NCBI GenBank assembly: GCA_947450325.1
Contig: CANFUT010000027.1
Span: 1-60,488, forward strand
Origin: Flavobacteriia bacterium
GTDB lineage: Bacteria; Bacteroidota; Bacteroidia; Flavobacteriales_D; Crocinitomicaceae
Direction of reading: 5' to 3'
DNA length: 60,488 bases
A program made the position numbers and the translations under genes. A model generated the notes under the pieces. That model was not told where the DNA came from and made no database searches. It saw nothing but the letters and a program-made list of their open reading frames with translations. The number at the start of each line of letters is the position of its first letter. Position 1 is the first letter of the stretch. Of the stretch, positions 8,067 through 32,038 are shown one piece after another.

Positions 8067-8076
8067 TTTTAAAATT

Positions 8077-14527: not shown

Positions 14528-14728
14528 TTAATCTATTATAAATTGTTGAACAATTTCAATATCTATCCCCACATATTGAGCGAATTCATAAGTCGTAACA
14601 AATTGATTTGATTGTTTATTCAAATTTTGTCTGATCATTAGTAACAATCTCCTAGCATATTTTTCACTTCTTCCAGTTATCCGCTGTATATCTTTTGGAT
14701 AGATACAGACTCTTTTAGGCATTTCCAT
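14528..14728 (-). CDS. small helix-turn-helix-like protein
   Basis: 66 residues; a second ATG at 14722 gives MPKRVCIYPKDIQ, perhaps the true start. The sequence (IYPKDIQRITGRSEKYARRL, then a second helical half ending QFIID) looks like a small DNA-binding HTH protein conserved in Bacteroidota. A truncated paralogue lies just upstream at 14913-15041. Confidence 0.6.
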   Translation of the reverse strand: MEMPKRVCIYPKDIQRITGRSEKYARRLLLMIRQNLNKQSNQFVTTYEFAQYVGIDIEIVQQFIID

Positions 14729-15255: not shown

Positions 15256-15312
15256 AAAATGTAAATTTTCTTTTGGGAAGGTCCTGAAAGATTAATTTTA
15301 AAAAGTTGAAAA

Positions 15313-16062
15313 ATGGCTAAGCAAACAGGCATTATCAAACTGAAAGGTAAAATCGGAGATTTATCTTTCTACAAATCAAAAGATGGTCACCTCGCCAGAG
15401 AAAAAGGAGGAGTTGAAGCTGAAAGAATCAAAAATGATCCAGCTTTCGTCAGAACGCGTGAGAACAATGCGGAATTTGGTAGTTCTGCCTCTGCAGGGAA
15501 GTTTTCCCGCGATTCTTTGCGTCCAATTGCATTGACGGCTTCTGACAACCGAGTGGTTGCGCGAATGACCAAATTGATGACTCAAATCAAGAATTTGGAT
15601 GGAACATCCGTTCGTGGTTTGAGAAATGTGGGTGTTGCAATGGCTTTGGCAACTGCAAAAGCAAAGTTGAAAGGTTTTGAGTTCAACAAGAATGCTTTGA
15701 TTGGAAGTATTTTGTATAAACCATGGGCAGTGAATACCACGACAGGAGTAATTACCATTCCAGGATTAATTCCGGTGAATGACATTACCTTTCCTGCAGG
15801 TGCAACGCACATCAGTTTTACTGGGTGCTATGGAAATTTGAACTATGGTACGAACATCGCGGATGTGAAGTTGACCAACGTTGTCAATTTACCAATTGAT
15901 GGAGCGACTACCGCGGTAACTTTGACACCTACTGCCCTACCAACGGGAACAGGTGTAAAAGTGTTCTTGTTGAAAATCGAGTTCTTCCAAATCGTGAATG
16001 GTGTGCAATATTCATTGAAAAATGGAGCGTACAATGCATTGCGAATCATTGAAGTGATTTAA
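15313..16062 (+). CDS. conserved Bacteroidota protein of unknown function, element-borne
   Basis: 249 residues. The N-terminal third is basic and well defined (GIIKLKGKIGDLSFYKSKDG, AREKGGV, then RIKNDPAFVRTRENNAEFG), followed by a helical stretch to about 125 and a beta-rich, hydrophobic C-terminus with no signal peptide. I have seen this N-terminal pattern in Bacteroidota accessory regions but know no function. Base composition and codon choice are visibly less AT-rich than in flanking genes, which suggests strong expression or recent transfer. The following small genes run in the same direction with short gaps. A structural or coat-like role is only a guess from its fold-like composition. 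Confidence 0.7.
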   Translation: MAKQTGIIKLKGKIGDLSFYKSKDGHLAREKGGVEAERIKNDPAFVRTRENNAEFGSSASAGKFSRDSLRPIALTASDNRVVARMTKLMTQIKNLDGTSVRGLRNVGVAMALATAKAKLKGFEFNKNALIGSILYKPWAVNTTTGVITIPGLIPVNDITFPAGATHISFTGCYGNLNYGTNIADVKLTNVVNLPIDGATTAVTLTPTALPTGTGVKVFLLKIEFFQIVNGVQYSLKNGAYNALRIIEVI

Positions 16063-16073
16063 TTTTTGTTGCC

Positions 16074-16280
16074 ATGAAATTAAAGGATCGCTTCAAAAGT
16101 CCTACACCGAAATTTTTCAAAAGATTGAGAAATTTTGGATTAGGCTTGGCGGCAGCTGGAGGAGCTATTTTAGCTTCTCCAATTGTTTTGCCAACAGCAA
16201 TAATCAGCTTGGGTACCTATCTCATCGTAGCCGGAACGGTTGCAGGAGCTGTGGCACAAAGTGTAACAGCTGATAGATAA
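16074..16280 (+). CDS. small hydrophobic membrane protein
   Basis: 68 residues: a basic start (MKLKDRFKSPTPKFFKRLRN), then one long hydrophobic glycine/alanine-rich segment (about 22-62), perhaps a helical hairpin. It starts 11 bp after the previous gene, so it is probably cotranscribed. Holin-like or phage-tail-membrane-like in composition; function not known. Confidence 0.6.
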   Translation: MKLKDRFKSPTPKFFKRLRNFGLGLAAAGGAILASPIVLPTAIISLGTYLIVAGTVAGAVAQSVTADR

Positions 16281-16341
16281 TAAAGTATTTTTTCTATTTC
16301 GAAAAAGTTACAAATTCGTCAAACTATTAATTCAAATAAAA

Positions 16342-16881
16342 ATGAATAAGGTAAGTAAATCAAGTGATTGGAAAGTAAAAGTAAAGTCAAAAAAGAAACC
16401 ACGCTTCAAGCCTGGTTCTGAATTGACTGACTCAGTGAACATAATGAACGTCGAAATCATCGAGGACAATGATGATCAAAAGGATAGTAAATCCTTCCAA
16501 ATGAATTTGGAAAAAGAAAGCAAAGAGCAGCTTGCGATTTCTTACAAAGAAACAACAATGCCAAGTGCTATTTCAGGAACTGAATCCATTGAAAAAGTGA
16601 ATGTGATGGAAATTGAGTTGACAGATGAGGTGAATGACGATTCTGAAATTTCTGAAGTCAAAATGACTACTAGCTCAAATCAAAATGCAAATCGTTTGAT
16701 CAATGTTCGCCGAAAATCAAAACCTCGTTTTAAACCAGGTGCCGATTTGACGGACAAAGTAAATTTGGTTGCAGTTGAAGTGTTTGAGCAAGTGGAAAAT
16801 GATGTTGAAGTTTGTGAAATCACCATCAATATCACTTCTAAAGTGAGTGCATGGGTTGAAACTGCTGCAGAACTAAACTAA
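16342..16881 (+). CDS. acidic protein with two HU-tail-like motifs
   Basis: 179 residues. Two copies of one motif: KKKPRFKPGSELTDSVN (about 13-29) and KSKPRFKPGADLTDKVN (about 130-146), each followed by a short beta-like stretch (NVEI / AVEV) and an acidic segment. The motif resembles the last strand and helix of HU-family proteins (FKAG..LKDAVN) but the rest of the HU fold is absent. No signal or membrane segment. Unknown function; possibly nucleic-acid-associated. Confidence 0.6.
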   Translation: MNKVSKSSDWKVKVKSKKKPRFKPGSELTDSVNIMNVEIIEDNDDQKDSKSFQMNLEKESKEQLAISYKETTMPSAISGTESIEKVNVMEIELTDEVNDDSEISEVKMTTSSNQNANRLINVRRKSKPRFKPGADLTDKVNLVAVEVFEQVENDVEVCEITINITSKVSAWVETAAELN

Positions 16882-16906
16882 ACTTCGACAAGCTCAGTTT
16901 ATCGAA
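16881..16906. repeat. REP-like hairpin, copy 1
   Basis: CTTCGA...TCGAAG hairpin containing TTCGACAAGCTCAGT, a short element scattered in many Bacteroidota genomes. A second, more diverged copy is at 17104-17128, on the other side of the small holin-like gene. Confidence 0.5.
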
Positions 16907-16925
16907 GAAATTAAAAATTTGGATT

Positions 16926-17105
16926 ATGTTACCTCATCACGACCACAGCACAGCAATAGGAACAACGACAGGAACGGCTTTATCCGTATTTGCGACATTG
17001 GACCCGCAAGATTACATCAAAACGATTGTTTTAGCTTGTGTCGGTGCGATTGTGAGTTTTACGGTAACGTTGTTTTTGAAGTGGGTTTGGAAGAAAATAA
17101 AATAA
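16926..17105 (+). CDS. holin-like small membrane protein
   Basis: 59 residues, shorter than most ORF cut-offs. It begins MLPHHDHSTAIG and has one strong transmembrane segment (TIVLACVGAIVSFTVTLFL) and a positively charged end (KWVWKKIK). Size, single or double hydrophobic span and basic tail resemble small phage holins or mobile-element membrane peptides. It lies between the 15.3-16.9 kb genes and a strong terminator. The overlapping frame from 16919 is a shadow. An amidase in the same island (26787) would be a possible partner, but they are 10 kb apart. Confidence 0.6.
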   Translation: MLPHHDHSTAIGTTTGTALSVFATLDPQDYIKTIVLACVGAIVSFTVTLFLKWVWKKIK

Positions 17106-17153
17106 CACTCGACAGGCTTAGTGTTACAAGTTCCTTGAAATAAAAAAGTTAAG

Positions 17154-17184
17154 AAACGCCATTCGAGAGAGTGGCGTTTTTTTT
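17154..17184 (+). terminator. intrinsic terminator
   Basis: Stem AAACGCCA (17154-17161) pairs with TGGCGTTT (17172-17179) followed by a T-run. It ends the 15313-17105 gene group. A similar but weaker unit recurs at 17803-17867. Confidence 0.85.
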
Positions 17185-17232
17185 ATTTGGTTAGGTTTGA
17201 ATATATTTGTTGTACTAAAGAGCCTTAACTAT

Positions 17233-17712
17233 ATGCTCAAAATTTCATTTCTCATTCTTATTGCGGGTTTAGTGCTTATTTTGATTGGATTAATCAAAAC
17301 TAAACCATGGAAGAATAATGAACAAAAATCATGGAGTAATCAAAACGAAACATCAGAAATAGATAGCTACGCCTTGTATTTAGGGATGTGTAAAAACGAA
17401 AATGAAGAGCCAATTGATAGGGATTTATTTCAGAACTTGGCAAATGAAGTTGGTGAAATTAATCTCTCTGACTTAATGGAGGTACACGGTAAAATAAACG
17501 CAAAACTAAATCGGAAATTTATAGACGATGAGATTACAACTAAAGAAGAACTCTCTTCAGAAACCAATCAAGAAAAAAATAAAAACGAAAAATTTGTTAA
17601 TTCAGCCATCGCTGGATATGCAACAAATTCTGCTGCGCTGGGAACCATCTTTGGTGGAAGTTTATTTGGTGCAGTGGTTGGTGATAAATTGCAAAAAAAG
17701 GGAGAGTCCTAA
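17233..17712 (+). CDS. membrane-anchored protein of unknown function
   Basis: 159 residues from the ATG at 17233 (MLKISFLIL); the frame extends to 17197. An N-terminal transmembrane helix (about 3-22), then a charged region, then a glycine/alanine-rich segment (about 120-150, AIAGYATNSAALGTIFGGS) that may be a second membrane hairpin. No family recognised. It lies between two copies of a terminator-like repeat. Confidence 0.55.
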   Translation: MLKISFLILIAGLVLILIGLIKTKPWKNNEQKSWSNQNETSEIDSYALYLGMCKNENEEPIDRDLFQNLANEVGEINLSDLMEVHGKINAKLNRKFIDDEITTKEELSSETNQEKNKNEKFVNSAIAGYATNSAALGTIFGGSLFGAVVGDKLQKKGES

Positions 17713-17802
17713 ACGATCACACTTGAAGGTAGAACCTATTCTCACTGATAAATACAAGGACTTTGTGGGTCTAGAAATTTTGATTTTCTGAACTTGGACT
17801 TT

Positions 17803-17867
17803 GTAAGTCCATTGAAATATAAAAAGTTATGAAAACGACATTCGAGATTGAATGTCCCATTTTATGA
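17803..17867. repeat. second copy of the terminator-region repeat
   Basis: About 60 bp similar to 17128-17185: both run AGTCC/AGTTCC, TTGAAATA, AAAAAGTTA, GAAA.CG.CATTCGAGA. This copy has a hairpin GACATTC (17837-17843) with GAATGTC (17850-17856) but a weak T-run. The gene at 17233 sits between the two copies. Confidence 0.55.
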
Positions 17868-18104
17868 GATATATAATACCTTGTAGGTAATTTTATAAGA
17901 ACTGTAGACTATCACTTTTCGCAATATATTTATATCTAACTTCTTTGACATGAATTCATGCTAATCAAATGTCTTTGATAATCATTTTTCTTAGAATATG
18001 AATGACAAACAATTTTGATGTTATTATATGTACATTAACTGACTTTGAGTATTAAAAAAGATTTTTTATTAACGACAAACCATCTTAATGTAAATATTTA
18101 TACA
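17868..18104. other. gene-less stretch before the fic gene
   Basis: AT-rich, no ORF and no obvious repeat. The only signal is the promoter box at its right end, described separately. Confidence 0.4.
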
Positions 18105-18112
18105 TATATTTG
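18105..18112 (+). promoter_or_regulatory. promoter -7 box (TATATTTG) of the fic gene
   Basis: Matches the Bacteroidota -7 consensus TAnnTTTG, 17 bp before the fic ATG, implying a leader of about 10 nt. No good -33 TTTG is visible at the usual distance. Confidence 0.5.
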
Positions 18113-18129
18113 CGTCAAAATATAGCGCT

Positions 18130-19245
18130 ATGGATTTTACCAATTCAGTACAATATCATTATGAACAATTTCCACCCAAAAATTTGGATTATGGAAAAAT
18201 TGTAAATTCCTTATTAAAAGCAACCGACGCATTGGCACGTTATGACCAAATGCTTAAAAATATGCATAATAGTGAAATTTTACTAGCACCATTGAGAAAT
18301 CAGGAAGCGGTAATTTCATCAAGAATGGAAGGGACTATAAGTACAATGGATGAAATACTAAAGTTCGAAGCTGATAGTGAGAATGATTCAGAAGAAGCAA
18401 ATAAAGTTCGCACTGAGGTGTTTGAAACGATTTTATATCAACGTGCACTTATTAATGCACAAAAAGCAATGAAAGATGGCTATCCACTCTCTCAACACTT
18501 AGTTAAAACTCTACATCAACAATTATTGTCATTTGGAAGAGGAGCTCAAAAATCCCCAGGGAAATATAAAATTGAACAAAACTATTTAGCTGATAAAATT
18601 AAACAAAAGGTTTTGTTTACACCAATTAGCCCAGAAAAATTAAATGACGGATTAGAAAATTTATTTACATATATTAATGAAAGTGCAGATCCGATTTTAA
18701 TCAAAACAGCTTTAATGCATCTCGAGTTTGAAGCACTCCATCCTTTTCAAGATGGAAATGGAAGAATTGGACGTATGCTTATTACACTACTTTTGTGGTC
18801 ATCTGGGGCAATCACTGAACCTCACTTCTATGTTAGTGGATATATGGAAGAGCATAAAGACGAATATATTGATACTATGAGGGAAGTGTCAAAAAATAAC
18901 AATTGGGAATCTTGGTGTATTTTCTTTTTAAATGCAATTGAAAAACAAGCAATAAAAAACTTAGAGATTGCAGAAAAAATAAAAGGATTATATGAAGAGA
19001 TGAAACCTATATTTTCGGATACATTATCATCAAAATGGAGTGTTAATGCTTTAGATTATATTTTTACCAATCCTATTTTTAGAAACAATCGATTTACTTC
19101 GAAGAGTGGTATACCCGCACCAACTGCTGCCAGATTTACGAGAATATTACTAGATAAAGAATTATTAAGAACTTTAGAAGAATCATCCGGCAGAAGACCA
19201 GCACTATATGCCTTTGAACCACTATTAAAACTAGTTCGAGTATAA
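18130..19245 (+). CDS. Fic family protein (class II), probable AMP-transferase
   Basis: 371 residues. Fic_N-like N-terminus, Fic core with motif HPFQDGNGRIGR (catalytic H204) and a C-terminal winged-helix-like region. The auto-inhibitory motif S-x-x-x-E-G is at 63-68 (SSRMEG), before the core, so it is a class II self-inhibited enzyme. Fic proteins transfer AMP or other phosphate groups to target hydroxyls. This type is usually chromosomal and free-standing, and no antitoxin gene is next to it. Its lone position in a mobile island leaves a defence or regulatory role open. Confidence 0.9.
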   Translation: MDFTNSVQYHYEQFPPKNLDYGKIVNSLLKATDALARYDQMLKNMHNSEILLAPLRNQEAVISSRMEGTISTMDEILKFEADSENDSEEANKVRTEVFETILYQRALINAQKAMKDGYPLSQHLVKTLHQQLLSFGRGAQKSPGKYKIEQNYLADKIKQKVLFTPISPEKLNDGLENLFTYINESADPILIKTALMHLEFEALHPFQDGNGRIGRMLITLLLWSSGAITEPHFYVSGYMEEHKDEYIDTMREVSKNNNWESWCIFFLNAIEKQAIKNLEIAEKIKGLYEEMKPIFSDTLSSKWSVNALDYIFTNPIFRNNRFTSKSGIPAPTAARFTRILLDKELLRTLEESSGRRPALYAFEPLLKLVRV

Positions 19246-19558
19246 AAAACTTACTGCAACACTTGCTAAAGCTCATGGCTAGATCATAGGTGAATTGTTC
19301 GTTTACTTTTCATAATTTTGTTAGTTGTAGTTTATGAAAAAATCTTTCTATAAATCGTCACGAGCTCTAGCAAGGAAACATTACCAGCAAACATAAACGA
19401 CAATTCTAACCAACATAAACTAAGATTAAAATGGCCGACAATAATCTAGTAGTTCTATTTGACACAAATTTGTACAGATAATTTGTAACAGGCAAAACAA
19501 GAGAGAAAGCTTTGGAAGACACGAGAGCCATCTCATCACTAATCTTCAAATTATTAGA
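19246..19558. other. gene-less stretch between fic and the DUF6943-like gene
   Basis: About 310 bp without a credible ORF or RNA gene. It appears to be a junction between two gene groups of opposite direction. Confidence 0.4.
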
Positions 19559-19590
19559 AAAAACCCTAGTCATTCTACCAGGGCTTTTCT
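19559..19590 (-). terminator. intrinsic terminator of the DUF6943-like gene
   Basis: On the minus strand AGCCCT pairs with AGGG across a 12-nt loop and is followed by a T-run (TTTTTT). It lies directly after the stop at 19592. Confidence 0.7.
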
Positions 19591-19591
19591 T

Positions 19592-20023
19592 TTACCTTAC
19601 TAGATCTCGCGCAACCTCACGTTTTATCTTTTTCAATGTTGCAGCCAAATCCTCAAATTGATGATCTTTTTCGTCAACAGTTTTCAGCAAAACCAAGGCT
19701 TTTTCAAAAAGTTCTGGTTTTGATTGTGCCTTTACAAACGCATCGCGGACCAAATTAAACATGTCTTTTTTGCGAATAAATAGGATAACCGATCCGATAA
19801 GATACTGCTTGAATTGGCAGCTCTGCCACAATGCGAAGCAGATCCAGTACAATGATTCCTTATCCTGAATGGTTGCGCATTCGCATACATAACAATTTGC
19901 ACAAGGTTTTTCAAGCGGTTTCCCGCTGTTTAATCCTTTGTTCAACACAAAGAAATGCACGCCCGAGTATTCAATACCCGGGCGATGCGTTTTGAAGCTA
20001 AAATTGAAACTCATAATTTTCAT
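19592..20023 (-). CDS. DUF6943-like conserved mobile-element protein
   Basis: 143 residues; a second ATG at 20014 is an alternative start. Recognisable pattern: FSFKTHRPG, HFFVLNKGLNSGKP, CANCYVCE, then YWICFALWQSCQFKQYLIGSV and PFIR-like FIRKKDM. I recall this family from Bacteroidota conjugative and mobilisable elements; its function is unknown. A small partner gene lies immediately upstream and overlaps its start by a few codons. Confidence 0.65.
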   Translation of the reverse strand: MKIMSFNFSFKTHRPGIEYSGVHFFVLNKGLNSGKPLEKPCANCYVCECATIQDKESLYWICFALWQSCQFKQYLIGSVILFIRKKDMFNLVRDAFVKAQSKPELFEKALVLLKTVDEKDHQFEDLAATLKKIKREVARDLVR

Positions 20024-20237
20024 ATTTAGCGTTTAATGACTTCAATCTTCTTTGTGCAAATGCTCTCAAATTGAGATACATTTTTCGAAGATTACCAGGT
20101 TTTAAATCCTGCAATTCCTTTTCAAAAAAGGCGATTTCTGTTTGTAGTTGAAATTGGTCCATTCTGTTCATGACCGACTTTGCAACTGCTGGGTTAATTG
20201 AATTGTACATATTATGGGCATTAAAAATTATGCTCAC
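19998..20237 (-). CDS. small helical protein upstream of the DUF6943-like gene
   Basis: 79 residues, mostly alpha-helical and charged (QLQTEIAFFEKELQDLKPGN), no membrane segment. Its end overlaps the start of the next gene by 26 bp (or 17 bp if that gene begins at 20014), indicating an operon. Function unknown. Confidence 0.5.
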   Translation of the reverse strand: MSIIFNAHNMYNSINPAVAKSVMNRMDQFQLQTEIAFFEKELQDLKPGNLRKMYLNLRAFAQRRLKSLNAKYENYEFQF

Positions 20238-20600
20238 CTGCGCTTCGCGCCTACAATTAATTCAAAAGAAAAGATAGAAAAAAAACGACTCAAAAAGCCG
20301 AAAAAAAAGAAAAAAAGAAAGCCGATTTAACAGGGGGTGAATGAAGGAAATGCAAGCTTTTTTCAAAAAAAATACTACCCGACTTTGCGAGAAAATTTTA
20401 TTTGTAAAGAGGAATTTAAAAATCAAAAAAAGTTTCAGTCCTAAAAAAAATGGAGGGTGGAGATTATTTTTGGAAAACCCGCAGGGCTTGAACTTGTATG
20501 TACTGAATGAATGCCCCTAAATTTGCTTTCATTTTTTTATTTTTGTCCACGGGCGACACATCTTAGTGATGATGAAAATTTAAAAATCGAACAATGATTT
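20238..20600. other. gene-less A-rich stretch upstream of the small operon
   Basis: Begins with a purine-rich run of A/G tracts (20275-20330), then TACCCGACTTTGCGAG and a GGAGGGTGGAG run near 20452, and GCCCCTAAATTTGC near 20514. No ORF. It looks like the conserved non-coding leader seen beside DUF6943 genes, but I cannot verify that. Confidence 0.35.
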
Positions 20601-20639
20601 CAATGTTTTGAACTGAAAAGTTTTCAATCTAAATATAAT

Positions 20640-21298
20640 TAAGTCAACTAAATTAAAGAGGTAAAACAGCCTTGAGCCAGCGGTGGAAAAGTGAAATGAA
20701 GCAATGGAAGTCCGATTTTTCATCGGAATGGAATTGCGGAATGGAACGTGCGCGCGAGCCGACTGCGAGTTGAGCGAAGGGGGAAGAGAAGAGCAGTGAC
20801 GATTGAGGAACTGCGGGAACGACCTCTGCTGGTAAGCACAAGGGTTTGGCGGATTTTTTGATTTCTATAGAAAATATTCAAACAAGTGTGTGATTGAATG
20901 CAATGTAGCCCGATTTTTCGTCGGGTGGAATGTAATGAAAGAACACTCTTGACAGTGAGAAATTATTTTGACGAGAAAAGTTAAATTGCTCTGCTTTTTT
21001 AGCAGTGCAAACTCTTTAAGAAATACTCTCAAAAAATGTGACAAACCCGCAGCCTGAGCGATTTTGCAGGCGAGCTTAACCCAAGGGGCGATGGACACCC
21101 AACAAACACGCGCTTTAGCACCTTTTAAGGGTTTGGGTGGACAAAGTAGCCCCGACTGACGACGTATGAGGACGTTACAAAAAAAGCTAGTGGAGAGCCG
21201 TAATTGAGGAATTCTGACGAATAGGCTTGGAGCAGTGTTTGCAAGGGCTGAGACGATAGGAACAGCTATGTATTACCCTTGCAAACAAGCTTTTTTTT
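20640..21298 (+). ncRNA. candidate structured non-coding region ending in a strong terminator
   Basis: Much higher GC than the surroundings and no believable ORF on either strand. It contains repeated CCCGATTTTTC.TCGG hairpins (near 20710 and 20908), an inverted pair GGGTTTGGCGG (about 20844) with ACAAACCCGC (about 21040), another pair ACACCCAAC / GTTTGGGTGG (about 21095 and 21130), and ends in an 11-bp perfect stem GTTTGCAAGGG (21237-21247) with CCCTTGCAAAC (21276-21286) followed by eight T. Could be an RNA, a transfer origin or both; the class is unknown. Confidence 0.35.
21237..21298 (+). terminator. strong intrinsic terminator without an upstream gene
   Basis: An 11-bp perfect stem with a 28-nt loop and a T-run on the plus strand, yet no plus-strand gene lies before it for 2 kb. 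This is the main reason to suspect a transcript from the region to its left. Confidence 0.7.
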
Positions 21299-21716
21299 GT
21301 AAAAGGACGAAAAGGAGGAAGACCGCTTTACCATTCAATTTATTGTTCAAAGAGATTTTATCTTCAACAAAAAATATATCTTCTTATTTGGTCTCAAATT
21401 CAAAGCGATTATTAAAATCATCTATTTCTTGTTGAAGTAGAAAAATACCAGGCTCTCTCTCATCTCTATAGTGACATCCTTGTCTTGAGATCCCTGCTTC
21501 TCAATATCAATATTGATTTAGTTGATCAATACTTTCAAGAAATCAAATAAATCTTTGTCTTTCAGGAAAAAAAATGCAATTGTGAATCTGAATCTAAGCA
21601 GGCTTTTAGATTTTCAGATGTATTTGTTTGCCTGAATTGAAAAAATTCAAATGAAAATTTTGGCTTGAGATTCTGCGATTGTAATTTGGATAATCTAAAG
21701 TCTATTTGTCATCGAT
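21299..21716. other. gene-less stretch downstream of the defence operon
   Basis: About 420 bp of AT-rich sequence with only small spurious frames. No clear terminator for the minus-strand operon was found. Confidence 0.35.
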
Positions 21717-24362
21717 TTAGAACTTCCCTCCCTTTTCTAATTTATCTAAACGATTGATCAATGCTAGACTTGGATTATTGTCGTTTAGGTAATGTTTGGC
21801 TCTACATTTTTTGGATAATTGCTTCAAAATAAGCACATCTTGCACTTCTGTTGCCTTAAAATCAATGTTGAAATCTATTGTTTGTAAAACGTCTGCGAGA
21901 TAGAAAGAATTTTTATCAAGTGACACAATGTAATTATCAATTGTTTCTCTCCATTTTTTTGGTCGTTCAGCAATTAATAATAACATCAATTCATGTTTTA
22001 ACAAGGAGTTACTTTCTGATTGTGCAGCATGAATGAGTAATGGACCCATTTTAGTTGAAAACAAATCGTCCTTGAATATTCTTACAACATTTGTAGGTAA
22101 TGCTTGTAAAACGGCAAATCTTTTTTCTATTGGGTCTTGAATTTCCAAATACTCTTCATCCAACCTGAAATTCGCTCCCTCAAATCCTATTTTACCCTTA
22201 TCGGCTAGTAGCGGAGAGAGAACAATTAATAGCTTGTTTAACTCATTCCATCCATTTGTGATATTTTTAAGTAATTCCTCTTTTAGCTCTGGATCATTGA
22301 CAAAGTCACTATTTCTCAACGCTCTACTCGCGGCAGCCACCTGGCGCATTAGAATAAGAAAAGAGTAATCTCTCATTACAGTATTAATAACCTGATTGTA
22401 TGGGCGTTTTTGATTGTACTGTTTATCGTCATATTTATCTTTAATCTCATCAGGCAATCCAGATGTAATAACATTTTCGCTGATTTTCGCCTCTTCTTTC
22501 ATTAATTCATTCACATTGGGATTCCATGTTATTGACTTAAAAGGGTTAAGGGTATCTGGAATATTTACTTTTGCACTTACAATTTGAATCGTTTCATGTA
22601 AATCATAATTTAGAACTTTTAAAGCATCAGATTTATTTCTATCAATTCCAGTATAAAATTCAATAATCTCGGGATAATCAACATATTTCTTTCCTTTATA
22701 AATTGCTTCTCGAAAATTTTCGTTCATATTCATTCTTTGCGCTATGAAGTAGAAAACCCAGTATGAATTTTTAAAATAATTATTCGACGAATTCTTGACT
22801 CCAATTATTGAGTTGTCTCTCAAGACAGTAATTAAATATTTAAGATCAAGGTCAATGTGATTTATTTTACAAAATTCCGTAAGGCTTGAATTGAAATATT
22901 CGTTGGAAAATTCGAAATCATCTCTCAAAACAAGTAATTCACTGAAATAACCTAAAACGAAACTACAATCTTTCACATCCGGTTTTTTATCATGGTATGT
23001 TGGCAATTCATAATTCTGAAAAATTGATGATAATATCGTTTCTAATAACTTTGTACGATTAACGACATTGTATTCATTCCCAATTTTTGCACCTGCACGT
23101 AAAATTGAAATACAATTTTTTACAGTTCGATGCATGTTTAGTGTTTCCAAATCTTTTGTCACTTTGGACAAAATTTTGTCATTATCTTCATCTATTTCTT
23201 TTATGTTGGAATAAGAAGAAACGATCTTTCTCAATTCCGCTTGAGGAAGAGGAAGCAAAAAGTAATTTGTGAATGTTCTTCTAATCTCAATTTTGTCATC
23301 TTCATCAGATTTAAGAAAAAAGTTATTGTCAATTGTGTTTAGAATAATTAGTGGTATTGCTTTGAACTCATCGCATATTGTTTTGATAATTTGCATCATT
23401 CCATTTTCCTCAAAACAAACTGAATCAAGTAAAATACAATCGATGTTTTTCAATTCCCTATGAAAAACGTTTTGAGTGATATTATTAATTTCTTTTAAAA
23501 CCTTATGTTTTTTAGTTGTTTTTGAGTCGAGAAATACGAAAGTTTTTCCATGCTTCCATGCTTCCAATTTTAAAAAATGCCCTAAAGAAGTTAAGCCAAA
23601 CTCAGATGGTGCACTTATAATTAAATCTGTAGGATTGTCAATTAGTAATTTTACATCAATTCTATTTTCATCATTTTTTGTTGGATTAATCGGAATTGAT
23701 CTTTTAGTACTGATTATCGGATCAATCCACAAAGGGCTATCTTCATTATAAGTTCTAAGCGCATTTTTCAAGTCTTCTTCGAATTGCTTTAGTAAATTGT
23801 CGATTTCTTTAAATTTCTCTTTGGGCTCGTTCATTAGGGAATTTTCTTGAACAAAAAGTTCTAGTTTTGATTTTAAAGCACTTTCAAAATTGGTTTCATC
23901 ATAGTCAATATAAAGACCTTCTGAACTGATTGATTTTTTAAAATTTTTAACTTTTTGAAATTGTTCAAAATCTAGTGTCTCAGGATCAACTTTTTCCTTC
24001 CCAAAAAAGAACAAAATTTGGGGTAATTTATCAATAGAACTCTTTTTTCGATTCAAGGCATCAAAGAATTCATGTTCTGTTCCACTTCCAGCTTTTTTAG
24101 TAGGGTGGCCAAATCGATGTTTCATAATACCAATAAAAATATCATAGTTTGATTTTTCAATATGCTCATCAATTATTTCTTGTCCATTTAATCCCATATC
24201 TGGTAATACATCACTCTCCCACTTGAAAGTTTCAAAATTGATACCAAAATGATTCGCTAAACCCGAATTGACTTCATCAATTACTTTTTGACATGTTTCT
24301 CTTTCAGGATTACAATCTCCTGGGGAGGATATAAAACATTTGTAAATTTTTCTTGTTTCCAT
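21717..24362 (-). CDS. DUF4062 / STAND-like protein, third gene of a Kiwa-like operon
   Basis: 881 residues. The N-terminal DUF4062 domain (about 5-170) has the typical start YKCFISSPGD and the stretch YDIFIGIMKHRFGHPT with TEHEF; this domain is TIR/SLOG-like and found in STAND-type proteins. The centre (235-480) looks like a P-loop NTPase, but the Walker A site is degenerate: APSEFGLTSL (251-260) has Leu where Lys is expected, while a Walker B-like IDCILLDS (307-314) remains. The last 400 residues are helical with no family I can name, and may form the sensor. It starts 35 bp after the KwaB-like gene, so it is probably cotranscribed. By analogy with DUF4062/STAND proteins a phage-sensing effector role is plausible (inference). 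Confidence 0.75.
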   Translation of the reverse strand: METRKIYKCFISSPGDCNPERETCQKVIDEVNSGLANHFGINFETFKWESDVLPDMGLNGQEIIDEHIEKSNYDIFIGIMKHRFGHPTKKAGSGTEHEFFDALNRKKSSIDKLPQILFFFGKEKVDPETLDFEQFQKVKNFKKSISSEGLYIDYDETNFESALKSKLELFVQENSLMNEPKEKFKEIDNLLKQFEEDLKNALRTYNEDSPLWIDPIISTKRSIPINPTKNDENRIDVKLLIDNPTDLIISAPSEFGLTSLGHFLKLEAWKHGKTFVFLDSKTTKKHKVLKEINNITQNVFHRELKNIDCILLDSVCFEENGMMQIIKTICDEFKAIPLIILNTIDNNFFLKSDEDDKIEIRRTFTNYFLLPLPQAELRKIVSSYSNIKEIDEDNDKILSKVTKDLETLNMHRTVKNCISILRAGAKIGNEYNVVNRTKLLETILSSIFQNYELPTYHDKKPDVKDCSFVLGYFSELLVLRDDFEFSNEYFNSSLTEFCKINHIDLDLKYLITVLRDNSIIGVKNSSNNYFKNSYWVFYFIAQRMNMNENFREAIYKGKKYVDYPEIIEFYTGIDRNKSDALKVLNYDLHETIQIVSAKVNIPDTLNPFKSITWNPNVNELMKEEAKISENVITSGLPDEIKDKYDDKQYNQKRPYNQVINTVMRDYSFLILMRQVAAASRALRNSDFVNDPELKEELLKNITNGWNELNKLLIVLSPLLADKGKIGFEGANFRLDEEYLEIQDPIEKRFAVLQALPTNVVRIFKDDLFSTKMGPLLIHAAQSESNSLLKHELMLLLIAERPKKWRETIDNYIVSLDKNSFYLADVLQTIDFNIDFKATEVQDVLILKQLSKKCRAKHYLNDNNPSLALINRLDKLEKGGKF

Positions 24363-24397
24363 ATTTAAGACTTCGATGTATATAATTTGGTAATACG

Positions 24398-25210
24398 TTA
24401 AACTATTTTAATTGAATTGGCCAACCTATCCTCCTCGTAAATATCAGATCTGTAGTAACGTTCATCCATTGCATAAAGTAGGTTTTTTAATTTATCCTCA
24501 GAATCAAGTATAAAATTACCTTCATCGTTTAAATCAATACCTGCTTTCAACTTTGCGTAGTGAATCAACAAATCTTTTTTTACTTGAGGTAAAGCATTGT
24601 ATTTTATGCCAATATCCGCAATTCTTTTCCGATTTGCACTTCCAACTTTATTTTTATCAATACTTTCACAATTGACAAAACTATTATTGAGAAATGAATC
24701 AACTTCATATTGAGTTGCCTCTCGGTGTAATTCTTCTATGCCAGGGAAAATACTTTTGATTTTTGAAAGATTCTTAAAATACAATGTGTCAGCTGATGAG
24801 GTATAAATTGCATCTGATTCTGACATTAACTCTAAATGACGTCTATGTTCAACAATTTTGGGAGTACCGGATGCATCAATAAATCTTTTTCTCCTTACGA
24901 ATAAAATTGAGGTTATTTTCTGAAAAAACTTAGTGTCAGATTGAATTATACAAAGTGCTTTTATTTTTTCAAAGTTCTCGTTTGATATTTGATTAATGCT
25001 TGTGGTATTGTAACCAGAATCACATTGATCTATGAAGAATGGTTGTTGAGAAAAAGTTTCAATCTTATACCATTCGCCTTCATCCAATTTATAATTTGGT
25101 GAAAATTCAACAGAAACTATTTGAGTATTGTCAAATGAAGAAAGTATGTTTTCTCTTTGGCTAAGTACTTTGTGATATTGTCTGCCACTTTTTGCAATTA
25201 GGTAATTCAT
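24398..25210 (-). CDS. kwaB: KwaB-like (DUF4868) protein of a Kiwa anti-phage system
   Basis: 270 residues from the ATG at 25210, 4 bp after the kwaA stop; an upstream in-frame ATG at 25255 would overlap kwaA by 41 bp and I rejected it. No signal or membrane segment. The layout fits DUF4868: a beta-rich first half (LFVRRKRFIDASGTPK, TLYFKN), a helical middle (RKRIADI, KKDLLIHYAKLK) and an end DSEDKLKNLLYAMDERYYRS resembling the family's terminal LL..LDD.Y..S pattern. KwaB is the cytoplasmic partner of KwaA. Assignment rests on pattern plus the adjacent KwaA-like gene. Confidence 0.6.
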   Translation of the reverse strand: MNYLIAKSGRQYHKVLSQRENILSSFDNTQIVSVEFSPNYKLDEGEWYKIETFSQQPFFIDQCDSGYNTTSINQISNENFEKIKALCIIQSDTKFFQKITSILFVRRKRFIDASGTPKIVEHRRHLELMSESDAIYTSSADTLYFKNLSKIKSIFPGIEELHREATQYEVDSFLNNSFVNCESIDKNKVGSANRKRIADIGIKYNALPQVKKDLLIHYAKLKAGIDLNDEGNFILDSEDKLKNLLYAMDERYYRSDIYEEDRLANSIKIV

Positions 25211-25214
25211 AATT

Positions 25215-25739
25215 TTAAATTTCAATAAATGTATAGTCGTTAATTCGTTTAACATGTGATATAATTAAATCTTTTGGATTTTTCAGTTTTTTCTTTGTTA
25301 TTAGCATAACCTTAACATTATCTATTGTTTGAACATAATAGAAATTAAATCCAAATATTAAAAAGGTGGGATTAAAATATGAAACTCTTGAAAAGAATGT
25401 AAACAATACCGTCATACCAAATACAACATAAAATAATATCATGTTTTCTGATTTTACACTCATTGCCACGAAGAAAAACGATAAATAGTTAGCTAGAAAA
25501 TCATTGTTTGATGTTTCAATATTTTTTGCATTTGAAAGTTTATCTGCTGATAGGACTCTGCAACACAACAATGTAATGAATGCTAAAACAAAAGGAATTG
25601 ATATGTAAATGAAAATTATTATCCACCAAAAAACTCCTAATTGAGATTTGAAAAAGTATATTTGATTGAACAGTAAAAAGACAATGCAAAAAAAAGAGAC
25701 TGAACTAATTGTCATAAGAAGTCGTATTATAAAATTCAT
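25215..25739 (-). CDS. kwaA: KwaA-like membrane protein of a Kiwa anti-phage system
   Basis: 174 residues with about four membrane segments (5-25, 35-60, 86-100, 103-122), as in KwaA. Characteristic stretches are NDFLANYLSFFFVAMSV, YFNPTFLIFGFNFYYV and a cytoplasmic tail VMLITKKK...RINDYTFIEI. In Kiwa, KwaA is the inner-membrane sensor and KwaB the responding partner. First gene of a three-gene minus-strand operon. The upstream region shows TTTG and TAnn-like boxes only weakly. Confidence 0.65.
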   Translation of the reverse strand: MNFIIRLLMTISSVSFFCIVFLLFNQIYFFKSQLGVFWWIIIFIYISIPFVLAFITLLCCRVLSADKLSNAKNIETSNNDFLANYLSFFFVAMSVKSENMILFYVVFGMTVLFTFFSRVSYFNPTFLIFGFNFYYVQTIDNVKVMLITKKKLKNPKDLIISHVKRINDYTFIEI

Positions 25740-26640: not shown

Positions 26641-26786
26641 GTTTCCATCTTTTGAATTGATGATTGGGATAATTTTACCGTTGATTTTAATTTAAAAATG
26701 AATAACAAAAATTGTGTCAACAGAGCTGATACAATTTATTAATGACTTCTAAAATCAGTACAACTTTACTTTTAAACATTATTTTT

Positions 26787-27419
26787 TCATCTTTCCTCAC
26801 TCAATCCTTTCAACAACTTAATTAAACTCAATTGAGGATGGCAATCCGATTTATCGGCACGGAAAGAGACGTGTGACCAGATACCAGGGGTTCCTTTTAG
26901 TGCTTTGTTACTCAGATCCCACATTTCTGTTTGATAGGTGGTTGGAATGGTATATTTTTCAGACAAGTACTGGATAAGATTATTTAATGATATAAGTTGG
27001 ACGTCTTTGTATTTATGAAAATAACGGTATCCGCGCCATTTCATGCCGTAATCAATGACTTCTTCCTTGGGTACTTCACGGTCATAAATCGTAAAATACT
27101 TTCCATTCTTTTCAGTTAATGCCCCCCAGTTACAAATCTCGATACCAATCGATTGTTTGTTCAACTGCATATTATTGCTGTTGCGAGTACCAAGGTGATT
27201 CGCCCAGTGTGCAGAACTAAAACATTGGTAAATGACTCCTTCTCCGTCGATCACAAAAGCTGTAGCTATCCGGACTGGGGTAAGCCCCCAACTGGTAATG
27301 ACATTTTTAGCATTGGGACCACTTACAGTATGATGTAAAACAATCTGTTTTTTAGGAAAAATTTCCGCGTAATATTGAGTTTTAGTTAATGGAAATTGAC
27401 AAAGGTTTTTAATTTTCAT
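26787..27419 (-). CDS. N-acetylmuramoyl-L-alanine amidase (Amidase_2 type)
   Basis: 210 residues. It cuts the amide bond between N-acetylmuramic acid and L-alanine in peptidoglycan. Amidase_2/PGRP zinc site: His in VLHHTVSG (28-35), a second His and Cys in SDCHPQLS near residue 190, plus IGIEICNWG. No signal peptide, as in phage endolysins, so release would need a holin. It lies between the Kiwa-like genes and the replication genes of the element. The same island encodes a holin-like peptide at 16926, but not next to it. Confidence 0.85.
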   Translation of the reverse strand: MKIKNLCQFPLTKTQYYAEIFPKKQIVLHHTVSGPNAKNVITSWGLTPVRIATAFVIDGEGVIYQCFSSAHWANHLGTRNSNNMQLNKQSIGIEICNWGALTEKNGKYFTIYDREVPKEEVIDYGMKWRGYRYFHKYKDVQLISLNNLIQYLSEKYTIPTTYQTEMWDLSNKALKGTPGIWSHVSFRADKSDCHPQLSLIKLLKGLSEER

Positions 27420-27688: not shown

Positions 27689-28339
27689 TCATTTTCTTTT
27701 GTCAGGGGAATCATTGGGAAACGTGATGAGGTTAAACATTTCTCGCATTCTGGAGCGTAATCGATTTCCATAAATAGCTTCAAGTGCAGATGCGCTAAGA
27801 TTGGTTGTTGCATGTGTTACATATCCTTGACTTACCATCAGCTCATATCTGTTTAATAGAATTTCTGCAATGGTATTACATTCATTGCCGAAATACTTCA
27901 TATTTTGTTCCACACCTAAATCATCAAAGCAGTAAATCTTTTGATTATTAGAAAATTTATTTATGGTTTGGTATCCTTCCTGATGAAATTCTGAAGCAAT
28001 TGAACGGGTAGAGCGAATAAAAAAATGGTTGACATCGAAGGTAAAATCATTCATCAAAGACATCAGAGACGTTTTGCCACATCCAATTGGGCCAGCTAAA
28101 AGAATCCCTTTGTTTGGATCTAAACCATATTCACGATACAATTTTTCTGTCTTTGTAAAATAAATCAACAGTTTTGAAATAATAGTAAGATCTTCTTTGT
28201 ATAAGCGAAAATGATTCCCAAATTTTTGATTTCCTCTGTATTGCAAGAAAGTTAGCGTATTTACATAATCGTAATTTCGAGCTCCTTCTTCATCAATGAA
28301 ATAAGGCTTTTCTAATGCTGGATTATAACGTTTCTTCAT
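27689..28339 (-). CDS. DnaC/IstB-like ATPase, probable helicase loader
   Basis: 216 residues. Walker A GPIGCGKTSLM (about 73-83), Walker B IYCFDDLG (about 129-136), sensor residues in THATTNLS and an arginine-rich GNRLRSRMREM. This is the DnaC type of AAA+ protein that loads the replicative helicase. It overlaps the previous gene by 17 bp, forming a replication pair. It implies the element can replicate at least transiently. Confidence 0.85.
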   Translation of the reverse strand: MKKRYNPALEKPYFIDEEGARNYDYVNTLTFLQYRGNQKFGNHFRLYKEDLTIISKLLIYFTKTEKLYREYGLDPNKGILLAGPIGCGKTSLMSLMNDFTFDVNHFFIRSTRSIASEFHQEGYQTINKFSNNQKIYCFDDLGVEQNMKYFGNECNTIAEILLNRYELMVSQGYVTHATTNLSASALEAIYGNRLRSRMREMFNLITFPNDSPDKRK

Positions 28340-28991
28340 AATTTGAATGTTGTGAATGTAATTGATGTGGGGCGAGTTTTACATTTTTTTCGGACTGAAA
28401 CTTTTTGCTTCTAAGAATCCAATTGCGAGCTGCTGCTTGCCAGTTTTTCATCTTGGTTTTTCCAACAATCCATCCATTAGCTTGGTAATACAAATGAAAA
28501 GGTTCAGCTTCATCTTTGGATAATCGTTGCTCATTAAAAAAAAACAAAACTTCCTCAAATGTTGGCGGAATAAAAAATGTATTTCTTTCATTTTTGTTTA
28601 TCATTTTATGATGTTTAAGAGTGTTTGAATTGTTTATAGAAGATACCTCCACTTGACCCGAAACTTGTTTATTGCTTGACTCACTACTTGTTCTACTACT
28701 TGTATCAAAATCGTACATCTTTACTATACTTCCTTTCAATGGGTTATGAGAAGGGCAATACAAAAAAAATCCCCAGTTACTTAGCTCAGTAATACACTTA
28801 TGATAGGTGTTTTTTGAACCAATTTTAGACAATCTCATGGTGTCCTCCCTATGAATAGAAATTGGATTTTTAAAGCGATTCATATTCCAAAATTGAAAGA
28901 GTGCCAAATACAAGCTCACATGGCTTGAATTTAATCTATCGTCATCTATTATACGTTGCATAACAGCAGTTAAATGAGCAATGTAATTCAT
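28323..28991 (-). CDS. replication initiation-like protein, partner of the DnaC-like ATPase
   Basis: 222 residues. N-terminal winged-helix-like region (about 1-95: SSHVSLYLALFQFWNMNRF, then SKNTYHKCITELSNWGF), a Ser/Asn-rich linker, and a C-terminal part FHLYYQANGWIVGKTKMKNW like the DnaD/DnaT end that binds ssDNA and helicase loader. It overlaps both neighbours (4 bp upstream, 17 bp downstream). Function inferred from layout and context. Confidence 0.6.
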   Translation of the reverse strand: MNYIAHLTAVMQRIIDDDRLNSSHVSLYLALFQFWNMNRFKNPISIHREDTMRLSKIGSKNTYHKCITELSNWGFFLYCPSHNPLKGSIVKMYDFDTSSRTSSESSNKQVSGQVEVSSINNSNTLKHHKMINKNERNTFFIPPTFEEVLFFFNEQRLSKDEAEPFHLYYQANGWIVGKTKMKNWQAAARNWILRSKKFQSEKNVKLAPHQLHSQHSNYEETL

Positions 28992-29281
28992 GATCTGTAT
29001 CTTCCATTTTGAATTTTTTTGGATTGTATAATTTTCATGATTTCTTCATAATCATAAAGAATAATTCCTCCGACTTTTGAATAAGGCAATGTTCCATTCA
29101 CTCTCAGATTAAGGATTGTTCCGGCAGATAATCCTAACAGTTTTTTAACCTCAGTTGATTTAATCCATTTTTTCTGACGTGGATTTTCTGTTTGCTGCTT
29201 GTTTAAAAGCACTTTGAACTCTAGAATTAATTCTTGCTTGAAATCTAGCAAGTCTTCCTTCGTTAATAAATTGATTTGCAT
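28988..29281 (-). CDS. helix-turn-helix (HTH_17 / excisionase-like) protein
   Basis: 97 residues. A coiled N-terminal helix, then the MerR/excisionase-type HTH: KWIKSTEVKKLLGLSAGTIL, NLRVNGTLPYSKVGGIILYD. Such proteins in Bacteroidota mobile elements act as excision factors or regulators. Its stop overlaps the start of the replication gene by 4 bp, and the recombinase lies 1.2 kb upstream. Confidence 0.8.
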   Translation of the reverse strand: MQINLLTKEDLLDFKQELILEFKVLLNKQQTENPRQKKWIKSTEVKKLLGLSAGTILNLRVNGTLPYSKVGGIILYDYEEIMKIIQSKKIQNGRYRS

Positions 29282-29595: not shown

Positions 29596-30405
29596 TTATT
29601 TATGTGCATCGGAAAGCATTTCTTGAAAAACAAAAATCATTCTGCTTAGGAATGATTTATTTTCTTTTTTTCGATCTTTAATGGCTGAAACAGTTCGATA
29701 TACATCCTTAACTTCAAAATTTACAATTTTTGAAAAAGTAATCACAAATCGTTTAAACTCATTTTCTCCATTATTAAAAACATTCGTTCGATGCAATGTA
29801 GCCAATAGTTCAACCAAATCTGTCTTGTTACCAGTCCATTGTAGCTCTGGATAAGTAATCTGTTTTTTTGTTGGAACTTCTTCTTCGAAATAATCTTTCA
29901 TAAATTCAATTGCTTTTGAATAAGCCAACAGGATATCGTACCCAGTAGAAAATCCCTTTTCAACCTCAGGAATAAATCGAAGAATGTAATCGTCTTTCAT
30001 CCCGCCGATTGTAAAATATTGTTCATCGCGATTAGTTGATGATCCGCATAGGTAATAACGAAAGTCTTTAAAAGAGTTAAATTTTTCCTGAAGTCTATTC
30101 AAGCAAATTTGTTGTATATCTGCAACTAGCTTATCCTGATTGATTGCTTTCTCAAATTCAAATTCCATCAATCCACGGCAGGCAAACTTAACTGATAATA
30201 TTTGTGGTTTTAAGTCTTTAAAAAAAAGAATTTCATCACTAACATTCTCAAATTCTTTATCAAGAACGAGTGCTTTCAGCTTTTGTAAAGTATCATCACA
30301 TAGATCCATAACTGTAATACATTTTTTTTGAAAGCACCCGTTTTTTTCCCAATGATTGATGAAGCGTTCATGGAACTCAATTGCAATTTTTTGATATATT
30401 TTCAT
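29596..30405 (-). CDS. RteC domain protein
   Basis: 269 residues. The C-terminal half carries the RteC pattern: LQWTGNKTDLVELLATLH, FNNGENEFKRFVITFSKI, VKDVYRTVSAIKDRKKENKS. RteC in CTnDOT-type conjugative transposons activates excision genes. Here it stands 47 bp after the recombinase gene, in the same direction, with the excisionase-like gene beyond. It indicates that the element derives from the CTnDOT lineage of regulators, though no Tra or Mob genes are visible. Confidence 0.8.
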   Translation of the reverse strand: MKIYQKIAIEFHERFINHWEKNGCFQKKCITVMDLCDDTLQKLKALVLDKEFENVSDEILFFKDLKPQILSVKFACRGLMEFEFEKAINQDKLVADIQQICLNRLQEKFNSFKDFRYYLCGSSTNRDEQYFTIGGMKDDYILRFIPEVEKGFSTGYDILLAYSKAIEFMKDYFEEEVPTKKQITYPELQWTGNKTDLVELLATLHRTNVFNNGENEFKRFVITFSKIVNFEVKDVYRTVSAIKDRKKENKSFLSRMIFVFQEMLSDAHK

Positions 30406-30452: not shown

Positions 30453-31685
30453 TTAAGTTCCCGAAATTTGCAATTTTTTCAATGTGAATTTTCTTTTAAG
30501 CTGCTGCATATCCTCACTAACTTTATGTTCTAATACTTTTGCGTAAATTTGAGTAGTTACCATTTTTTTATGGCCAAGCATTTTGGAAACTGTTTCAATA
30601 GGAACCCCATTTGATAATGTTACTGTTGTGGCAAATGTATGCCGTGCAATATGCATTGTAAGCTCTTTTTTGATGCCGCAAATTGATGCGATTTCTTTTA
30701 AATATGCATTCATCTTTTGGTTTGAGTTTACAGGCAATAATTTACCTGTTTGAATGCATTTAGGATGATTTTTATATTTGAGCACTATTTCTTCTGCTTG
30801 AGGAAGAAGTGGGACATTAGAAACTGTATTCGTTTTGGTTCTTTGAGTAAAAATCCAACTATCACCATCAATTCCTTTCGAAACATCATTACGATGCAAC
30901 TTGAAAACATCAATGAATGCATACCCTGTAAAGCAACAGAATAAAAAGATATCACGAACTTCAGTTAGTCGTTGATGCTTGAAATCTTTGTTATACAAAG
31001 CAGTTAATTCATCTTGATCAAGAATTTCTCTCCTAACTTCATGTGTACTACATTTAAATTGCGCAAAAGGATTTTGTTGCAACCATCCATTTAAAACTGT
31101 TTGATTGACCACTTTTTTGATGTTACGAATGTATTTCATGGCTGTATTATGAGCAATGCCATGTGTTTTTAAAAAGTGTTCAAATTCTGTAATAAATTTG
31201 TAATCCAATTCTTTTAGGTAGATGTCGGATTTTTTAAACCTAATGTTTAAAAAATCAGAACACTTTTTATAAACTGTTTCAAATTTAGTATGGGTAGATT
31301 TTACTACATCTGTTCCAACTAACTCTTTCATTTGGTCGTTATGGTACCGAAATGCTTCCAGAAATGTTTTCTCCTTTTCTGTATTTCCGATCAATTGATT
31401 TTTAAGTAAATCGGAGGTAATAAATTTTTCTAGTGAAGTTTGTTCAACATAAATCTTATAAACAGCTGTTCGAATAAAATCTAACTGATTATTTATGGTT
31501 CGAGCTTCTTCTGAAGAACCTTTTACCATCCCAGCTTTCTTAATCCATTTATCTGGATCTACAAATTTCTTGACTGATAGTTCTGCTCGTTTTCCATTTA
31601 CTGTAATTCTACAATAAATAGCTGCTTTACCTAATTGCATCCTAGAGGTGTTCAACCAAAAGAGAAGTGAATAGTTTTGTTTCAT
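30453..31685 (-). CDS. tyrosine recombinase / integrase next to tRNA-Asp
   Basis: 410 residues: arm-binding N-terminus, SAM-like domain (about 105-215), catalytic domain. HIAR (H345, R348), H372 in MLGHKK and Y381 in QIYAKV are present. The box I arginine is missing here too (FTGYAF). It lies 276 bp from the 3' end of tRNA-Asp, a common integration target, and upstream of RteC, HTH and replication genes. It most likely integrates the island. Its similarity in length and layout to the recombinase at 4100 suggests common descent. Confidence 0.9.
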   Translation of the reverse strand: MKQNYSLLFWLNTSRMQLGKAAIYCRITVNGKRAELSVKKFVDPDKWIKKAGMVKGSSEEARTINNQLDFIRTAVYKIYVEQTSLEKFITSDLLKNQLIGNTEKEKTFLEAFRYHNDQMKELVGTDVVKSTHTKFETVYKKCSDFLNIRFKKSDIYLKELDYKFITEFEHFLKTHGIAHNTAMKYIRNIKKVVNQTVLNGWLQQNPFAQFKCSTHEVRREILDQDELTALYNKDFKHQRLTEVRDIFLFCCFTGYAFIDVFKLHRNDVSKGIDGDSWIFTQRTKTNTVSNVPLLPQAEEIVLKYKNHPKCIQTGKLLPVNSNQKMNAYLKEIASICGIKKELTMHIARHTFATTVTLSNGVPIETVSKMLGHKKMVTTQIYAKVLEHKVSEDMQQLKRKFTLKKLQISGT

Positions 31686-31961: not shown

Positions 31962-32038
31962 TGGCGGTCTGGACGGGACTCGAACCCGCGACCCCATGCG
32001 TGACAGGCATGTATTCTAACCAACTGAACTACCAAACC
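31962..32038 (-). tRNA. tRNA-Asp (GTC)
   Basis: A 77-nt cloverleaf on the minus strand: acceptor GGTTTGG pairs with CCAGACC, anticodon stem CATGC/GCATG with loop CTGTCAC giving anticodon GTC, T-arm GGTTCGAGTCC, and CCA encoded. Its 3' end faces the integrase gene, so it is the likely attachment target of the island. Confidence 0.95.

Follow-up and report, generated by a model that had tools for sequence, protein, structure and literature searches.

GOLLD and ROOL are large structured RNAs from phages and prophages; a ROOL example measures 659 nt, many GOLLD RNAs exceed 800 nt, such RNAs assemble into multimeric cages made of RNA only, and their function is given as not known (PMC12286853). 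Transfer of Salmonella genomic island 1, which has no classical relaxase, needs the self-encoded sgm-sRNA, a small RNA that is described as coming from a longer, mRNA-capable transcript, of which it is the 3' end, and as being encoded beside oriT and mpsA (PMC9299015). Integrative elements and defence islands targeted to tRNA genes have a tyrosine integrase beside the tRNA, form tandem arrays and carry defence cargo. The phage satellite PLE presumably carries a long non-coding RNA.

We studied a window of 60,488 nt, i.e., the whole stretch of DNA analysed here (contig CANFUT010000027.1 of a Flavobacteriia bacterium), and found in it a gene of 677 nt for a probable structured RNA that belongs to an integrative element. 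The RNA resembles GOLLD and ROOL in its large size, elaborate covarying structure and mobile-element setting but is linked to elements carrying the gene P249 (see below), not to phage genes, and had no Rfam match; these two (PMC12286853) appear to be its nearest structural analogues. With sgm-sRNA it shares an integrative element with an RNA of its own and no classical relaxase found (PF03432 searched), whereas it is 0.56-0.99 kb long and no oriT/mpsA-like neighbours were identified; sgm-sRNA (PMC9299015) would be the nearest working precedent. The likeness to PLE (PMC7567579) is that each would be a mobile island bringing a long RNA of its own, but P249 showed no phage link in the viral contigs and phage records searched. 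All three traits of tRNA-targeted elements named above are shared, and the difference lies in the conserved P249-TM68-R179-DUF6943-RNA set. The open-access literature searched yielded no description of the RNA or of the element. The gene names HTH66, P249, TM68, R179, p79 and DnaD222 are labels coined in this analysis.

Table 1 Features of the RNA gene and of the surrounding element in the window (helix strands are those of the RNA)
Feature	Position	Strand	Basis
HTH66, small conserved protein, module left	14528..14728	-	33/74 loci; 55% identical in Marivirga p1
P249, conserved protein	15313..16062	+	45/74 loci, in each case upstream of the RNA and in its orientation
TM68, small hydrophobic protein	16074..16280	+	40/74 loci; 55% identical in Marivirga p1
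R179, repeated motif like HU/IHF tail	16342..16881	+	33/74 loci; PF00216 over 23 residues, E 7.5e-6
Fic protein, PADLOC SoFic (cargo)	18130..19245	+	E 2.2e-106
DUF6943 protein	19592..20023	-	PF22105 E 1.5e-41; 33/74 loci
p79, small conserved protein divergent from RNA	19998..20237	-	24/74 loci
Structured RNA	20658..21334	+	conserved between non-conserved flanks; covariation; core model matches
P1, closing stem, 5' strand	20660..20665	+	partner 21327-21332
P2, long-range helix, 5' strand	20842..20848	+	partner 21042-21048
P2, 3' strand	21042..21048	+	covariation
P6, 5' strand	21085..21089	+	partner 21149-21153
P7, 5' strand	21096..21102	+	partner 21133-21139
P7, 3' strand	21133..21139	+	covariation
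P6, 3' strand	21149..21153	+	covariation
P8, A-run strand	21175..21188	+	partner is T-run 21288-21302
P9, 5' strand	21196..21199	+	partner 21224-21227
P9, 3' strand	21224..21227	+	covariation
P10, 12-bp hairpin	21236..21287	+	covariation
P8, T-run strand	21288..21302	+	covariation
P1, 3' strand, end of conserved element	21327..21332	+	alignment and covariation
DUF4062 protein (cargo)	21717..24362	-	PF13271 E 1.8e-6; partial PADLOC PDC-S60, residues 4-179, E 2.6e-43
Kiwa KwaB (cargo)	24398..25255	-	PADLOC E 2.1e-19
Kiwa KwaA (cargo)	25215..25739	-	PADLOC E 2.5e-15
Amidase_2 protein	26787..27419	-	PF01510 E 2.5e-14
DnaC-like helicase loader	27689..28339	-	phrog_50 E 1.3e-16
DnaD222, replication-type protein	28323..28991	-	phrog_15768 (function unassigned in PHROG) E 6.9e-20; 45% identical in Marivirga p1
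HTH_17 protein (HTH97)	28988..29281	-	PF12728; 52% identical in Marivirga p1
RteC-family protein	29596..30405	-	PF09357 E 4.6e-34
Tyrosine integrase	30453..31685	-	PF00589 and PF13102; 51% over 265 aa vs Marivirga p1 integrase
tRNA-Asp, probable right attachment site	31962..32038	-	ARAGORN

The first-pass annotation had singled out positions 20640-21298 as a GC-rich, gene-less region with inverted pairs. The composition and the lack of genes were confirmed: the G+C content of the RNA gene was 0.452, against 0.342 in the whole window and 0.309 and 0.288 in the two flanks, and none of 2991 sliding segments of the window (677 nt, step 20) equalled it; none of the ORFs >=80 aa overlapped the region, and the inverted pairs are present in the sequence. 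The place was right but the limits were not, as the conserved element starts near 20658 and ends near 21334, beyond the supposed terminator (see below). A coding role was rejected, given the absence of ORFs of at least 80 aa and the non-triplet length differences of block B; this block has a 62-aa antisense ORF, which is unlikely to be coding because block lengths in 25 sequences differ by non-multiples of three. The folding energy of the plus strand was better than that of 20/20 shuffled sequences (z -3.56) and so was that of the minus strand (z -3.53); therefore energy alone cannot tell the strand, and comparison with relatives does.

In an alignment of 29 loci the stretch corresponding to 20655-21336 varied in length from 563 to 988 nt and had sharp ends. 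The 5' edge is at GGUAAA (near 20660) and the 3' edge at UUUACC (near 21332), and these two sequences form base pairs; conservation dropped outside both edges. A search of 48 upstream regions for the promoter motif TTG-N17-23-TAnnTTTG gave four occurrences vs 1.5 expected, i.e., no enrichment, and the longest exact matches to the RNA within the window, inspected for antisense targets, were 12-13 nt, about chance level. A hammerhead-like CUGANGA core spotted by eye was dropped, being lost in the aligned relatives. Locus L149 has a shortened variant of about 445 nt (read by eye), and some 70 nt beyond its 3' edge lies a tRNA gene (9654-9735, minus strand) whose variable arm is long; it was called tRNA-Phe GAA by ARAGORN and scored 39.9 bits with Rfam.

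The helices of the RNA were evaluated in several alignments. The two larger ones were reduced, one from 29 to 25 rows and the other from 51 to 46, the latter by leaving out L141, L142, L144, L160, L173 and near-identical rows. Alignment A2 used 24 of 29 sequences (excluded were L047, L048, L051 and L052, with long inserts, and L063), and A4 and A5 used 20 and 21 of 25 references. An alignment-free test was run on the 44 sequences that remained when L143, L149 and then near-identical rows were also removed. In the 46-sequence alignment the closing stem P1 was paired in 0.84 of cells, with double changes in 7/8 tested pairs, and P2 in 0.92, with double changes in 5/7 pairs. P6 showed double changes in 5/5 pairs with 99.2% of cells paired (24 sequences), and P7, which closes an arm of differing length among relatives, in 7/9 pairs. 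The inner three pairs of P9 were 96.7% paired and all three had double changes, while its outermost pair was 50% paired; in P10, 97.5% of cells were paired and seven of the 12 pairs had double changes, the other five being invariant. Taken together, the two helices of A2 had 97.6% of cells paired vs 80.2% when shuffled, with double changes in 12/14 pairs, and the T-run helix, P9 and hairpin of A4 had 93.9% vs 76.4%, with double changes in 17/22 pairs.

In both the 25- and the 46-sequence alignments P1, P2, P6, P7, P9 and P10 outscored every one of 300 shuffles and every slid version. The alignment-free test of P1, P2, P6+P7, P8, P9 and P10 gave the same picture: a strand paired better with its own partner in 35/42 (P1) to 44/44 (P2) sequences, none of 5000 permutations was as good, and two control pairings had no signal. 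The case of P8 was less direct. Judged from the window sequence, it has 14 pairs and a single bulged U; 92.5% of its cells were paired, with double changes in 6/6 tested pairs, and it surpassed 300 shuffles, yet in the 46-sequence set a slide of one column did as well or better, since the A and T runs contain gaps that blur the register. P8 was settled by the test that needs no pair register, in which the A side paired better with its own T side than with the T sides of other sequences in 40/44 sequences (0/5000 permutations as good). P4 was weak (19/300 shuffles reached the observed value in the 25-sequence set) and the block C hairpin was almost invariant. P5 as first placed was in the wrong register, paired 0.67 and better when slid, and was left out; with it excluded, G.U cells outnumbered A.C cells 35:18 and 78:47 in two alignments, which modestly favours the plus strand.

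These compensatory changes, which go beyond the controls, make a conserved structure close to certain; it is most likely that of a non-coding RNA, structured single-stranded DNA being less likely. A structured plus-strand RNA in a mobile element was among the suggestions of the first-pass annotation, with compensatory changes in stems named as support for it; such changes are abundant across several helices, and the neighbouring genes are those of an element (see below).

A perfect 11-bp hairpin followed by a T-run had also been proposed as the 3' end of a transcript. The hairpin and T-run are real, although the stem has 12 bp (21236-21247 / 21276-21287); its arms are 28 nt apart and are followed by T8 at 21291-21298. 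Note that our terminator scan, with a loop limit of 8 nt, omits this hairpin. As the T-run is a strand of P8, pairing with the A-run upstream across about 105 nt, and the element continues for about 35 nt, to ~21334, the hairpin is not the end of the gene. In some relatives (L048, L055, also L047, L052 and L057) the place of the T-run is A-rich and the partner strand T-rich. An intrinsic terminator as end of the element was thus rejected, on the upstream pairing of the T-run, its absence from some relatives and the conservation further on. The hairpin with T-run at 21236-21298 is what would speak for a role in cis on an adjacent gene, as its leader, attenuator or terminator; with the T-run a helix strand that some relatives lack, and the first gene downstream of the RNA on the opposite strand in 51/65 loci (L144-L147 and L171 excluded), we regard such a function as extremely improbable, and the RNA is unlikely to be the leader of the next gene. 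Upstream of the RNA, DUF6943 and p79 were also on the opposite strand, in 33/33 and 24/24 cases.

Searches with the DNA sequence found matches at E <=1e-5 in 38 of 200 genomes of the family, as blocks 80-90% identical with variable arms between them; phage and plasmid records had no DNA-level match to the RNA stretch. A covariance model of the core (R1) matched 42/299 genomes of the order and 9/395 of the phylum (own genome included). Around 40 loci fetched by R1 alone, flanking-domain matches were accepted in the right place and on the right strand: an independent 3' model was in place in 31, a 5' model in 34 and both in 28. L141 and L142 were without the 3' domain, and L144, L147 and L171, with neither flanking domain, are doubtful members. 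The exact core pattern occurred in 36 stretches of named genome contigs, mostly metagenome-assembled genomes of Flavobacteriia, including Fluviicola and Crocinitomicaceae, with a few under other taxon labels; viral contigs had none. Against Rfam 15, the window gave only a tRNA (at gathering score), the search of seven related loci likewise only a tRNA, and region 20450-21400 searched at E up to 10 gave ten matches, all below gathering, the best with E 0.7; no known Rfam family, GOLLD, ROOL, OLE, introns, ribozymes and riboswitches among them, matched at gathering score.

Clustering of ORFs at 74 RNA loci revealed a common backbone of constant order (strands in brackets): HTH66(-), P249(+), TM68(+), R179(+), often TM92(+), DUF6943(-), p79(-), the RNA(+), cargo, DnaC-like(-), DnaD222(-), HTH97(-) and integrase(-). 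Individual loci can miss backbone genes, and many contigs are short. P249 lay within 30 kb on the same contig at 45/74 RNA hits, and in 45/45 of these the RNA was downstream of P249 and shared its orientation; the remaining 29 hits had no P249 within that distance on their contig. Among 299 genomes, which are related to each other so that a Fisher value should not be read as a true probability, 36 had RNA and P249, six RNA only, eight P249 only and 249 neither, the P249 search of the set giving 44 positives. Conversely, at least 45 of 65 strong P249 genes had the RNA downstream within 30 kb, and contig ends may explain part of those lacking it. The single contig of G059 carried six RNAs and six P249 genes in one-to-one pairs. 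At L161 (G109:C12) each of the three RNA domains occurs two times, near ORFs that by eye look RHS-like or, in two cases, integrase-like, and P249 was absent from the stretch examined, so that the RNA also occurs outside P249 elements. The RNA of this locus lies in two direct 2.5-kb copies, 99.5% identical and at a distance of 8 kb; each copy is followed downstream by two integrase-like ORFs.

P249 had no Pfam match above cut-off, no NCBIfam match and no PHROG match, and searches of viral contigs and of phage records did not detect it. Its AlphaFold model (pLDDT 70.3; residues 1-77 below 50 except one residue) had no Foldseek match at E <=0.001 in BFVD or PDB. Three aerolysin-type chains in a PDB sequence search (E 0.08-0.1) were taken as chance. 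In R179 the motif resembling the HU/IHF C-terminal tail occurs twice and the rest of that fold is absent.

Cargo varies between P249 and the RNA, and also after the RNA, and the RNA stays. Local DNA matches between loci ended within 10 nt of the RNA 3' edge in 13/19 compared pairs and continued past, or stopped inside, the RNA in the other six. In two pairs of loci, each from one genome (L045/L178 and L043/L063), the RNA was the only local match, at 94.1% and 90.2% identity, and on either side this match ended within 10 nt of the edge of the RNA. These RNA-only islands might be expected of an RNA that is itself mobile between elements, e.g., intron-like or retro-element RNA, which we consider very unlikely: a free mover would not keep its position and strand relative to P249 constant (all 45 cases above), no Rfam intron model matched, and exchange of cargo around a conserved backbone explains the islands. 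The same edge, where cargo begins, and the defence genes adjoining the RNA in the window would suit an RNA that serves the cargo as an RNA-based immunity or addiction part, such as an RNA antitoxin or the ncRNA of a defence system. This is also unlikely, since the cargo changes while the RNA stays, the neighbours at L150/L151 look by eye like metal efflux genes, and the clusters common to most loci (22 largest) included neither a reverse transcriptase nor any other single family of cargo genes. Reverse transcriptases, as would adjoin a retron, DGR or DRT RNA, were looked for in the 17 Pfam-scanned ORFs of 14528-31685 and by eye in the 22 largest neighbour clusters, and none was found.

The element has the features of tRNA-targeted integrative elements: it encodes a tyrosine integrase, and a repeat of a tRNA 3' end is seen at junctions. 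At five loci an integrase lies 459-690 bp before HTH66 with tRNA 3'-end sequence between them, and four of the five junctions contain a common 12-mer that L044 has in an intact tRNA-Lys and a second time beyond this gene; such junctions are what tandem copies with a common attachment site would be expected to show. The window shows the tRNA-Asp side only. A 16-nt piece of the tRNA-Asp 3' end, single in the window, is present at the L058 tandem junction, and no repeat of 10 nt or more was shared between 14043-14527 and 31686-32040. As the window has no left attachment copy, the left edge of the element here is not fixed. Between the integrase and tRNA-Asp there is a strong inverted repeat (31897-31930; 34 nt, 94%).

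A P249 search of plasmids gave one match, p1 of Marivirga sp. BKB1-2 (NZ_CP129969.1, L187), typed as non-mobilizable and deposited as a circular record of 25,320 bp. It encodes relatives of HTH66, TM68, HTH97, DnaD222 and the integrase (Table 1), and HTH66 adjoins the integrase as at the tandem junctions. The RNA core (35.0 bits, E 1.4e-9) adjoins the 5' domain of the RNA (26.6 bits, E 1.6e-7), and the two are in order on the P249 strand; model search did not find the 3' domain on p1. By its anatomy, rather than by experiment, p1 shows that the element family can exist as a circle. P249 itself is unannotated on p1 and split into two ORFs (19124-19969). The plasmid also has an annotated DUF5675 gene, and DUF5675 occurs beside P249 in L140 and L143.

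The circular form bears on another explanation, namely that the fold is used by single-stranded DNA as an oriT, a single-strand replication origin or an integron attC-like recombination site. Such DNA would also keep compensatory changes and wobble pairs, and the cargo junctions at the 3' edge would suit it as well. oriT and attC hairpins, however, are far smaller than this structure of 0.56-0.99 kb with several domains. A transfer origin had been suspected from the start. This gained no support from a search for PF03432 relaxases, which detected none in four complete genomes (G000, G059, G077 and G201) or on the Marivirga plasmid, and whose control was detected in 1/14 known genomes. We rate the single-stranded DNA explanation as rather unlikely.

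A trans-acting large RNA of integrative elements, with a role in their mobile phase, is on balance the best explanation of the whole, and we hold it with moderate confidence. Comparison of relatives shows a structure whose two ends form a closing stem, in an RNA that would be read from the plus strand. By anatomy, it is part of the backbone of a family of elements that insert at tRNA genes of Flavobacteriia and relatives and carry variable cargo, often defence genes. The RNA would be made as its own transcription unit and may act in trans, alone or as a ribonucleoprotein scaffold, perhaps with P249, and it would serve excision, replication or transfer of the element. Rather improbable, and offered as speculation, is that it could be the founding member of a new ornate class, RNA-only or P249-bound, for relaxase-independent replication and exit of defence-carrying circles. 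Few bacterial RNAs of this size show as much conserved structure, and for the best known of them no function is settled; the present one also marks an element family that spreads defence systems among Flavobacteriia. Its gene neighbours form a small, constant set, its natural variants are many, and one circular carrier is from a strain that has a name and is apparently an isolate, so that its role is genetically testable.

Elsewhere in the window, positions 1-11083 contain several ORFs with their own start codons, a common stretch (LNERTSTVLGSEKFRYGYQG and similar), which we take to be RHS-like, and differing tails; the set looks like a cassette array. A second tyrosine integrase lies beside these ORFs, at 4100-5332 on the minus strand.
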